The notes under the pieces were generated by a model, which was not told the DNA's origin, made no database searches, and saw only the letters and a program-made list of their open reading frames with translations. From positions 1 to 27,897 of IMG/VR virus record IMGVR_UViG_3300037427_000638: a stretch of DNA of 27,897 nt. One strand, given 5' to 3'. This document shows, one piece after another, positions 12,521-23,084 of this stretch. The stretch's first letter is position 1; each line of letters opens with the position of its first letter. Origin of the DNA: a virus. Both the position numbers and the translations under genes were made by a program.

Positions 12521-15199
12521 CTATTTCCCTTTAGCTTTAATTACATTTACATCCACACATCCTGAATTGGCATCATTGTATGGATTATTAGGTTGTACGT
12601 TTCGTGTATATTTATCGAAGGTAGCTTGATTTACAGTTGATAAGGATGGGAATCGTTCACGTAGACCTGCTAATGAGTTATTAGCTTTACACCTTTCTCT
12701 AATTGAGTACAAGAATATTTTACCTTGTGTAGAACTATCGAAAGGTTGGTTCACATCAAGTTTTAATTCTTTCAGTGCAGCTTTGATAGTTTCTCTATTA
12801 ACATTATAAAGACCTACATTATCACTGAAGTGACCATTATCCATACCTAATAGGACTGCATAGATTGAATCACCTGTAGTACCATTTTGTACGGAGTCTC
12901 TATTACCAATTAACTCTAATAAGTCCTCTTGATTTACTACACCATCTTTATTAACATCACCTTCTACTTCAGGCTTCTTCTCTTTTGTCTCAGATTTTGT
13001 AGTATCATTAGTGCTTGAGTTATCTTCTTCCTCTTCACCTTTAGACTCACCTTTTGGATGTGTGGTTACAATAACTCTATTAGTACGTGCCATGCTAGGT
13101 TTAGAACTTAGCATAGATTCTAGATATGGCTGGAGTTGACCAGTTGTATTCATATGGTTAGGTAGTGGTAGATCCTTACCAGTATATGCTTTGTATTGTG
13201 CGGCAGCTAGTGCCCACTCAGCTGGTACACCATTAACAGGTTTATAATCAGCACCAATAGATCTAAACATTGGAGGTAATTTGAAAGATTCCCCACTAGC
13301 TATCTTATCTAGTTGTTGGATAGTACTAAGAGTACCCTTACTTTCATCACCATTAGTATCTAATCCGGGTATCTTATTAGTGAAGTCATTATTATTAGCT
13401 CTTAAATGTTTACTACCTAAGATATAATTCTCTACTGACCTGTGTCCTTCAGATGCTTCAAGTGGTTTAACAAAAACACCTTTATCAGAATCAGTATCTA
13501 GTTGCTTCATAGCTTCTGTATGAGCATCTGCATCACTCATACCATTCAATTTATTTTTAGCGTAATTTCTTTGGTATGATTCTAATCCTCTAGTTTCAAA
13601 ATCTTGGATATCTCTTGGAACAGCTTGGTTTGGACCAATATTTGTATTATAATAAGTGTTTGCTCCTGTTCTAGCACGAATTTTTGCAGCGTTTAAATTC
13701 TCAGTTGAAGCATGAGCAAAGCGTCTTGTCTTAGTTTTAGATTTATATTCGTCAGCATTTCTAACGGCCCAAGGTAATGTATCTGCAATATCTTGAGGTA
13801 AATACCCTAATTCCCTTATGTAGTAATCAGCTGTAGCTTGAGCATCATCTTCTGCTTGATCTTCAGCTGTAAGATACTTAGTTATTTCTTCAGGAACCTC
13901 ACCAATATTACCATCTTTCTTTTTGACACTATTCCATTGGTTAATGAACTGTTTCAATTCATCTTCAGTAATAGCCCTACCTTTATCATTTTCAAACTGT
14001 CGTATAGATTCTAAAGTAGTTTGTTTTAATTTAAAAGTTTCACGTTCAATTAAATTATTATGTTTATTAACCACTCTATTTTTTTGATCTTCAATTTTAT
14101 TTGAAATACCATTATTTGATAGAGCTTTTCTATAGACAACACTATCTCTTAATTTAATTTCTTTACCACCAGCTGATTTGTCTTTGATCATCATATCAAG
14201 TAAAGCATCAACTTCTTCACCTGTTATTTGGTCAGAATCTAAAGCTTTACCAATACCAACGAATACATTATCAATTAAACCTTGTGGTGTATATCTACCA
14301 CCATGTAACTTTACAAGTTCTTCTAGCTTCTCCTTAGCAGCTTCCGGTCCATTCTGTAAAGCTACAATAAATTGATCGTTAATCTCTTGTTTTCTTTGCT
14401 TGTCATGGGATTGACGCATTTCTTCGCCACGTGCATTGGCAATAGCAGTTTCATGCTCATCCATCTTCTGCCAAAGATATTTATTTCTACCAGTTAGAGT
14501 ACCTAACCCTTTATATTTCTGAAGGTATTGCTTCTTAACTTCTGTAGTAATAGCAGCTATCTCAGCAGAGCTTCCAGCGGATTGAAGATTAACATGCTTC
14601 ATACCACCCTGACCATCAGGTACTGGTACTGTTATATTCTGAGCTTCTTCACCTTGTCTCCACTGCGAATAATTATTACCTGCAGTTTGTAAGAGTTGGT
14701 TTGTATAAGCTACCTTAGCATAAGCACCTAAGTTTTCAAAGTTTTGTACTATTTCAGTGGAAGCTCCATCATTTTCAGCTGATGCTCCAAGATCATTTGC
14801 TAATGCTTGACCTTCAATAGCTCTCTCTGTATCTCCGGGTACGTTAGGTTCTATTGCAGCTATATGTGCAGCACCTTGAGTATGAGCTAATGCTTCACCT
14901 TCAGCTTCTTGTTTCTCTATTATTTTCTTAGCACCAGTATTAGCTAAACTAACTAATCTATCAGAAAACTTTTCAAGTTGTGCTACATTTCTATTTTGTG
15001 AATATTTTTCCCATTCATTTTGAAATGCTATATTTTTATCACCTTGAGCTTGGGCTCTAGTAAAATTATCCCAAGCTGTCTTTTGGTTTTTCTCCATTAA
15101 AGGAGTTACATCTGCAGCGATAACTGGATCAAAATTAACTGGCAAAGCAGCAGCGTTGAATTCAGCTTCGTCTGTAAATACTGTTTGATTGTCTGCCAT
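12521..15199 (-). CDS. Internal virion (ejection) protein, T7 gp15-like, with dockerin-like EF-hand
   Basis: The protein has 892 residues (T7 gp15 has 747) and sits between the gp14-like and gp16-like genes. It is mostly charged and helical, typical of inner-core proteins that leave the capsid to form part of the periplasmic DNA conduit. After an acidic low-complexity linker (about 725-745, many Glu, Ser and Lys) there is a canonical calcium loop at residues 748-759, DVNKDGVVNQED, with acidic or Asn ligands at positions 1, 3, 5, 9 and 12. It resembles a dockerin or EF-hand repeat. A C-terminal region follows (about 770-892) containing YNVNRETIKAALKELKLDVN, vaguely like phage muramidase-associated domains, though that is weak. 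Assignment to gp15 rests on order and size. Confidence 0.87.
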   Translation of the reverse strand: MADNQTVFTDEAEFNAAALPVNFDPVIAADVTPLMEKNQKTAWDNFTRAQAQGDKNIAFQNEWEKYSQNRNVAQLEKFSDRLVSLANTGAKKIIEKQEAEGEALAHTQGAAHIAAIEPNVPGDTERAIEGQALANDLGASAENDGASTEIVQNFENLGAYAKVAYTNQLLQTAGNNYSQWRQGEEAQNITVPVPDGQGGMKHVNLQSAGSSAEIAAITTEVKKQYLQKYKGLGTLTGRNKYLWQKMDEHETAIANARGEEMRQSHDKQRKQEINDQFIVALQNGPEAAKEKLEELVKLHGGRYTPQGLIDNVFVGIGKALDSDQITGEEVDALLDMMIKDKSAGGKEIKLRDSVVYRKALSNNGISNKIEDQKNRVVNKHNNLIERETFKLKQTTLESIRQFENDKGRAITEDELKQFINQWNSVKKKDGNIGEVPEEITKYLTAEDQAEDDAQATADYYIRELGYLPQDIADTLPWAVRNADEYKSKTKTRRFAHASTENLNAAKIRARTGANTYYNTNIGPNQAVPRDIQDFETRGLESYQRNYAKNKLNGMSDADAHTEAMKQLDTDSDKGVFVKPLEASEGHRSVENYILGSKHLRANNNDFTNKIPGLDTNGDESKGTLSTIQQLDKIASGESFKLPPMFRSIGADYKPVNGVPAEWALAAAQYKAYTGKDLPLPNHMNTTGQLQPYLESMLSSKPSMARTNRVIVTTHPKGESKGEEEEDNSSTNDTTKSETKEKKPEVEGDVNKDGVVNQEDLLELIGNRDSVQNGTTGDSIYAVLLGMDNGHFSDNVGLYNVNRETIKAALKELKLDVNQPFDSSTQGKIFLYSIRERCKANNSLAGLRERFPSLSTVNQATFDKYTRNVQPNNPYNDANSGCVDVNVIKAKGK

Positions 15200-22002: not shown

Positions 22003-22554
22003 TTACCACTTCTTCCATACTACATTGGAACCTGCCAAGAGGTGAGTTCCAGCTGCAGAACCAGTTATGTTGGCTGCTTGGAATACAATGTTGCCTTTTG
22101 TAGATGCAGTTGATAGTGCATTGAAGGTTACTTGTAAATATAAAGCAGAAACTGCTGCGCCATTATCGACACCAACAGTAACACCAGCACCATCAGTTGA
22201 ATAAGTACCAGTACATTCAACCTGAGCTGCTGCAGGTGTAGCACCACTAGTTATCTCTGTTACGGATGCAACTGATTGAGTTGCAATAGTTGTACCAACT
22301 GCTGTTGATCCATCAGATTGAGCTAGGTTTGCTACTCTGTAGCTAAGTTCATTAGTGTTATCTGTATCATACCAGATAGTATAGATACCCATAACTCTTT
22401 CATAGCCACCTATCGGAATACTAAGAGCTGACTGAGTTGCTAGTGTAGCAGATGATAGAGATGATCCATCATTAGCTAGAATTGCACTGTTGTCATATAG
22501 TGTTCCTGTTGAATAATTAACAGTTCCGTAAGTGGAATTACTTGTGAAAGGCAT
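22003..22554 (-). CDS. Putative structural protein upstream of capsid, 183 residues
   Basis: The protein starts MPFTSNSTYGTVNYSTGTLYDNSAIL. It is very rich in Ser, Thr, Ala and Gly, with alternating hydrophobic residues (for example TVNYSTGTLY, ALYLQVTFNAL), and ends VVWKKW. The pattern suggests an all-beta protein such as a capsid fibre, knob or decoration protein. It begins after the terminator that ends the accessory insertion and precedes the capsid gene, so it probably shares the capsid transcript. I recognise no family. No signal peptide and no membrane helix are visible. No good ribosome site is visible; an A/T-rich stretch (TTTTTTAAACA) precedes the ATG. Confidence 0.8.
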   Translation of the reverse strand: MPFTSNSTYGTVNYSTGTLYDNSAILANDGSSLSSATLATQSALSIPIGGYERVMGIYTIWYDTDNTNELSYRVANLAQSDGSTAVGTTIATQSVASVTEITSGATPAAAQVECTGTYSTDGAGVTVGVDNGAAVSALYLQVTFNALSTASTKGNIVFQAANITGSAAGTHLLAGSNVVWKKW

Positions 22555-22727: not shown

Positions 22728-23084
22728 TTAGAACTTAAACTTGGCACCTATCTTAGTGCCATAAGCTGTATCAGCAGTCTCATCAGTAACGAATGAAACT
22801 TCACCGTATACATCTAACTTCTCTGTAGCAGCAATGGATAGTCCACCTTTGCCTGAGAAATCTGTGTTACCATCTGCACCATCCGGAGCTTGGAAAGCAG
22901 GACCACCTTGAATATAATACCCAAGTTTACCTGCGTCTCCTTCATATCCTAGATGAAGATCAGTAGTACGGGAAGTGAAATCATTGCCTGTATAAGATGC
23001 GTTAGACTCAGCGTTAATATAAACGCCAGCCATTGCAGGAGCAGAAGCGATAGATGCCGCTAGAGCAAGTGCAAGTTTTTTCAT
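22728..23084 (-). CDS. Porin-like outer-membrane beta-barrel protein with signal peptide
   Basis: The protein has 118 residues. Residues 1-19 are a signal peptide (MKKLALALAAS...) with an AMA cleavage motif before GVYINAES. The mature part has amphipathic beta-strand patterns (TTDLHLGYEGDAGKLGYYIQ, KLDVYGEVSFV). It ends GTKIGAKFKF with a terminal Phe, the hallmark of outer-membrane beta-barrels recognised by the BAM machinery. At about 99 mature residues it would be a small barrel or one half of a dimer. Related porin-like proteins are, as I recall, common in cyanophages, especially T4-like ones. It probably acts in the envelope of the infected cyanobacterium (permeability, superinfection exclusion or lysis), but the role is unknown. 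It is directly followed by a terminator. Confidence 0.8.
   Translation of the reverse strand: MKKLALALAASIASAPAMAGVYINAESNASYTGNDFTSRTTDLHLGYEGDAGKLGYYIQGGPAFQAPDGADGNTDFSGKGGLSIAATEKLDVYGEVSFVTDETADTAYGTKIGAKFKF

Follow-up and report, generated by a model that had tools for sequence, protein, structure and literature searches.

The gp15-slot ejection protein of a T7-like cyanopodovirus carries a complete dockerin-type EF-hand loop, DVNKDGVVNQED, which immediately precedes a candidate catalytic helix at the start of a decayed lambda-lysozyme-like domain. Our tentative reading, to which we give somewhat less than an even chance, is that the loop forms a calcium-stabilised clip, N-capping the first helix of this domain after a flexible acidic linker.

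The gp15-slot gene and its protein

The window, i.e. the whole stretch of 27,897 nucleotides analysed, is a fragment of a T7-like cyanopodovirus with psbA. Its gp15-slot gene sits between the gp14-slot and gp16-slot genes, in the same gene order as in P-SSP7. The gp16-slot protein matches the internal virion protein family phrog_6651 (E 5.7e-282), and tblastn of the window gp16 finds matches in P-SSP7, S-TIP37, P-GSP1 and NATL1A-7. The gp15-slot protein is similar to other cyanopodovirus gp15-slot proteins (blastp, E down to 1e-32), while tblastn against 50,697 phage records at 1e-5 returned no match to it, and by this search the gp15 of no named phage, including T7, was found similar. The label "gp15-like" in an earlier note on this DNA is thus borne out by synteny and by the cyanopodovirus gp15-slot similarity, but not by a sequence match to gp15 of a named phage. 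The protein of this marine cyanobacterial virus is probably injected into the host. The parts discussed below are:

12521..15199, minus strand: gp15-slot ejection (internal virion) protein, 892 residues (open reading frame, synteny and blastp)
12959..13048, minus strand: acidic low-complexity linker ...GESKGEEEEDNSSTNDTTKSETKEKKPEVEG, residues 718-747 (sequence; pLDDT mostly 33-40)
12923..12958, minus strand: dockerin-type EF-hand loop DVNKDGVVNQED, residues 748-759 (PS00018 match)
12896..12931, minus strand: exiting helix QEDLLELIGNRD, residues 757-768 (predicted helix 757-765 with pLDDT about 50; profile match)
12830..12895, minus strand: shortened middle region, residues 769-790 (residue counting against the relative L115)
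12596..12829, minus strand: C half of the lambda-lysozyme-like domain, GLYNVNRETIKAAL...FDSSTQGKIFLYSIRER, residues 791-868 (hhalign)
12524..12595, minus strand: C-terminal tail, residues 869-892 (no match; segment 880-892 with pLDDT <50)

Elsewhere in the window, positions 22728-23084 (minus strand), near psbA, encode a beta barrel of outer-membrane type that seems to have a signal peptide (Pfam Phage_OMP, E 1.6e-42). The gene between this one and the capsid gene (22003-22554, minus strand) codes for a 183-residue protein with no PHROG or Pfam match.

Sequence, rarity and class of the loop

The loop satisfies the ligand pattern D.N.DG.[LIV]N..D and is complete against both PS00018 and the dockerin consensus, which confirms the earlier claim of a fit at all ligand positions; it also falls within the interval 12915-12965 originally given for it. 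The plus strand of this stretch is non-coding. PS00018 matches the protein once, at residues 748-760, and the search for a second calcium loop, a check proposed at the outset, found none when all 892 residues were scanned with PS00018 and the strict dockerin pattern. By shuffling the gp15-slot protein (20,000 shuffles), 0.0052 PS00018 matches are expected per shuffled copy and 0.0005 matches to the strict form D.N.DG.[LIV]...[DE]. Over the open reading frames of the window and its relatives (455,467 residues), the strict form was observed 2 times with 0.12 expected, a relaxed loop pattern 5 times with 2.9 expected, and PS00018 alone 3 times with 2.6 expected. These counts place the PROSITE pattern at background level and the strict, glycine-containing dockerin form above it.

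The near-chance count of PS00018 over all scanned reading frames favours the main rival to a calcium-stabilised clip, namely that the loop matches by chance or is left over from decay at a boundary between domains; it would then be a turn rich in Asp and Asn, N-capping a helix and in practice free of calcium. The adjoining linker, already rich in Asp, Glu and Asn, the low pLDDT of the loop and its confinement to one population point the same way. The strict form (Gly6, a hydrophobic residue at position 8, Asn9, Asp12 and then the LLELI helix) is, however, far rarer in shuffled proteins than the PROSITE pattern, and we consider coincidence or decay rather unlikely.

The loop is of a known kind in an unusual protein. 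Pfam Dockerin_1 aligned over one half of the model (18-19 residues) with 16.3 bits for the whole protein and 18.1 bits for its C-terminal part, below the curated gathering cut-off of 22.9 bits, and the Pfam EF-hand models gave weak matches to the loop region. A full dockerin domain was rejected, since a single repeat is present instead of two tandem loop-helix repeats and the score lies below the cut-off; both point to one loop with its exiting helix. That only half a dockerin is present also speaks against a docking module, in which the loop and helix would bind a virion or host-envelope protein as dockerin binds cohesin, and no cohesin-like family occurs among the scanned window proteins. 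Docking, which we regard as very unlikely, would agree with the dockerin-like sequence and with the frequency of such loops in viral proteins: a degenerate DNA pattern for D.N.DG.[LIVMF]N..DLL found 84 stretches in viral contigs, with 67 matches in open frames, many of them accompanied by a second loop. By these counts dockerin-type loops are familiar in viral proteins, and it is the protein carrying the loop that is unusual here. A further candidate, an "EF-hand in gp11" (DTNRDQHFDDYD), was dropped as it fails PS00018.

Wall-hydrolase domains at the C-termini of gp15-slot proteins

As judged from the sequences, the C-terminus of gp15-slot proteins is a place where wall-hydrolase domains are swapped. 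It differs among cyanopodoviruses, with Pfam matches to a glucosaminidase and M23 in S-SRP01, to SLT_3 in S-CBP3 and, below threshold, to Phage_lysozyme2 in Syn5. Twelve loci form a group with a lambda-lysozyme-like domain (L021, L022, L024, L025, L062, L071, L075, L084, L089, L114, L115 and L126), in which S-TIP37 is placed by its sequence; 11 of the 12 match the endolysin families phrog_90 and phrog_1200. The model of L115 aligns with lambda lysozyme (1am7/3d3d; Z about 10, rmsd 4.0-4.5 over 121-130 residues) and with cyanophage A-1(L) 8kea (Z 10.4, rmsd 5.7 over 143 residues), and in Foldseek alone 1am7 ranked first with an E of just 0.3.

Individual loci show the variety of these C-termini. 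Pfam finds a glucosaminidase with M23 in L013 (2293-5451) and SLT in L014 (2288-5263). By eye, L024 (1689-4520) has a lysozyme followed by an apparent M23, and L058 (3272-5725) an M15-like end, while the gp15-slot proteins of P-SSP7 and relatives (L007, 2559-5072; L127, 3404-5845) end in repeats of the form GxWxxI...GYxVxxGxxWxxSGxxG. In the alignment, L078, L088 and L090 retain the lysozyme-like domain and apparently lack the catalytic Glu, which suggests that decay of the domain may be common in cyanopodoviruses. A swappable, often decayed wall-hydrolase module in this position should aid the annotation of a slot that is mostly blank in databases.

The decayed domain behind the loop

In the window protein, the linker directly follows the last stretch common with the gp15 bodies of relatives (residues about 640-717). 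Further downstream, residues 791-868 align with 32 relatives (hhalign, probability 93.6, E 2e-7), with a score of 52.7, where the best of 200 shuffles scored 20.4; by this profile comparison, the C half of the domain is homologous to the lambda-lysozyme-like (lytic transglycosylase family 4) domain. For the preceding part, a profile built on the catalytic helices of relatives (e.g. FLELVKNKES in L115) reached its top score in the window protein at residues 758-769, EDLLELIGNRDS (12.6, with 7.4 at the next-best position; 9e-5 of null positions score as high). This helix ends in RDS, with Asp768 at the position of the catalytic Glu in active relatives. The exiting helix is therefore probably the equivalent of the lysozyme catalytic helix, in which Asp768 has taken the place of Glu. 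From the catalytic-Glu position to the G.Y motif there are 28 residues in the window and 55 in L115, about 27 fewer, which suggests that the substrate-binding lobe has been lost. Given the Asp768 replacement and this shortening, the domain is probably not an active lysozyme, and peptidoglycan catalysis by it appears unlikely. A MAFFT register that placed the loop on the GEYDAMN stretch of the relatives was dropped, because the helix profile yields a better register, and is held to be an artefact of a forced long gap.

Structure prediction, proposed earlier as a check, recovered the helix but left loop and helix at low confidence. In an AlphaFold2 run on residues 600-892 with 34 sequences, the exiting helix was predicted at 757-765 and no helix in the preceding residues 718-747; pLDDT was mostly 33-40 in the linker and 37-52 in the loop and helix, rising to 84-96 at residues about 780-840. 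Against the PDB, the best Z of the window model was 4.1, to an unrelated structure, with CBS-domain rows at Z about 4 and no lysozyme among the chains compared. A PDB sequence match to elongation factor Tu (E 0.06) was at chance level, and a phage match to MT839521 (E 0.3), which would read as a ROK-type repressor, was likewise put down to chance.

Distribution of calcium-type loops among relatives

The gp15-slot set comprised 117 proteins including that of the window, picked by synteny from named phages and from loci found via gp16 alignments. Neither PS00018 nor the strict dockerin form matched any of the 116 others (0/116), so the proposed check for the loop in gp15 of other cyanopodoviruses found none in this set. 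The sole other gene copy found (L001) is 100% DNA-identical, and searches of viral_contigs and genome_contigs for close homologues of the C-terminus returned just the identical contig, or none. The nearest diverged relatives end short of the loop region; L002, the 76% relative, spans residues 1-418, and L003, a 91% relative by gp16, begins within gp16. With an identical copy on one side and contigs lacking the region on the other, the comparison of ligands is limited to L001 and the distant relatives. The earlier note had made its reading depend on ligands conserved in relatives; the distant ones all lack the element as a whole.

A second loop, DRNGDGQFTFAD, was found in gp16 of cyanophage NATL1A-7 at residues 180-191 (L010, 1001-5578, minus strand). 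It lies within an N-terminal extension at which the gp16 proteins of the window, P-SSP7, S-TIP37 and P-GSP1 have gaps, and Pfam leaves it unrecognised. Positions 1, 3, 4, 5, 6 and 12 are kept in six relatives from viral contigs (L135-L140), one of them at 56% identity, which suggests selection. Going by this conservation, and as a post hoc find, the gp16 loop is a better case than the window loop for calcium in an ejection protein.

Possible role of the loop

If the loop acts as a clip, the single dockerin-type site, loop plus exiting helix, would N-cap the first helix of the decayed domain. It would be empty while the protein is synthesised in the calcium-poor host cytoplasm and would take up calcium after release of the virion into seawater or arrival of the protein in the periplasm. 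The filled loop would then keep linker, helix and domain rigid, like the stabilising EF-hand of the lytic transglycosylase Slt35. In favour of a clip are the complete ligand set, rare by chance, the lambda-lysozyme-like domain at the equivalent place in relatives together with the homologous C half in the window, and the best catalytic-helix match directly behind the loop. Precedents exist, by analogy, in LysGH15 and in family 3 lytic transglycosylases, and the conserved gp16 loop of NATL1A-7-like cyanophages suggests that another cyanopodovirus ejection protein has such a site under selection. The case is weakened by the low model confidence for loop and helix and by the lack of an independent homologue with the loop in the sequences searched. 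In addition, the window model has no lysozyme match, hhalign with residues 746-790 alone gave no match at all, and calcium binding may be weak in a single loop that lacks the entering helix.

Two roles had been proposed in the earlier note. Of these, fixing of the C-terminal domain agrees best with the results, as the helix leaving the loop resembles the first, catalytic helix of the lambda-lysozyme-like domain. The other, that it senses passage through the envelope, is unsupported; there is no sign of a switch, and the loop is single and absent from the gp15-slot relatives found. As a switch, it would leave the C-terminal domain open at low calcium during assembly and refold it at high periplasmic or seawater calcium, so that during ejection the protein could get through, dock or lengthen the tunnel. 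A loop placed behind a flexible linker, the refolding of the C-terminal part of T7 gp15 upon ejection (PMC8954989) and the conserved EF-hand in gp16, another cyanophage ejection protein, would suit such a switch. The loop is, however, unpaired and not conserved in gp15, nothing in the structure hints at two states, and calcium would be bound before infection, since released virions are already in seawater. We therefore consider a switch improbable.

Similarly doubtful is a broader proposal, that cyanopodovirus ejection proteins repeatedly gained EF-hand-type sites, in gp15 of the window and in gp16 of NATL1A-7-like phages, and exploit the jump in calcium between cytoplasm and seawater or periplasm as a lock or timer for the ejection machinery. 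Should the loop bind calcium, a phage ejection protein would have a calcium site, for which limited searches found no earlier description, and, with the conserved gp16 loop added, a role of calcium in the genome ejection of marine phages would become directly testable.

Comparison with known systems

With dockerin type I (PF00404) the window loop shares the twelve residues of the form D.N.DG.V...D and, as predicted, a helix behind them; dockerin has two such repeats, whereas the window has one, below the gathering score and in a phage ejection protein. The NATL1A-7-like gp16 loop is likewise of dockerin/EF-hand type and belongs to an ejection protein of cyanopodoviruses, but it lies in an extension missing from the window gp16, follows a helical-looking run and is conserved down to 56% identity.

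Closer in layout is the phage lysin LysGH15, whose 12-residue "EF-hand-like" loop has one flanking helix only and is required for activity (PMC4022735). Both loops have twelve residues and one flanking helix, a predicted one in the window, and lie in phage proteins of wall-lytic type; the LysGH15 site belongs to an endolysin CHAP domain with proven calcium dependence, that of the window is a putative site in an ejection protein, at its lambda-lysozyme-like domain. The family 3 lytic transglycosylases Slt35 and SltB1-3 have an EF-hand within the catalytic domain, and thus in a lysozyme-like fold (PMC12547810); the title of a work cited there calls calcium important for the stability of Slt35. 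Their loop is longer (17 residues in SltB2) and inserted late in the catalytic domain, whereas the window loop has 12 residues, precedes the first helix and belongs to a domain in which catalysis is probably lost. Finally, gp35 of K1E and K1-5 resembles the window protein in that a lysozyme is carried by the gp15-like, not the gp16-like, ejection protein (PMC8954989); the window domain differs in lacking the Glu and in having gained a calcium-type loop.
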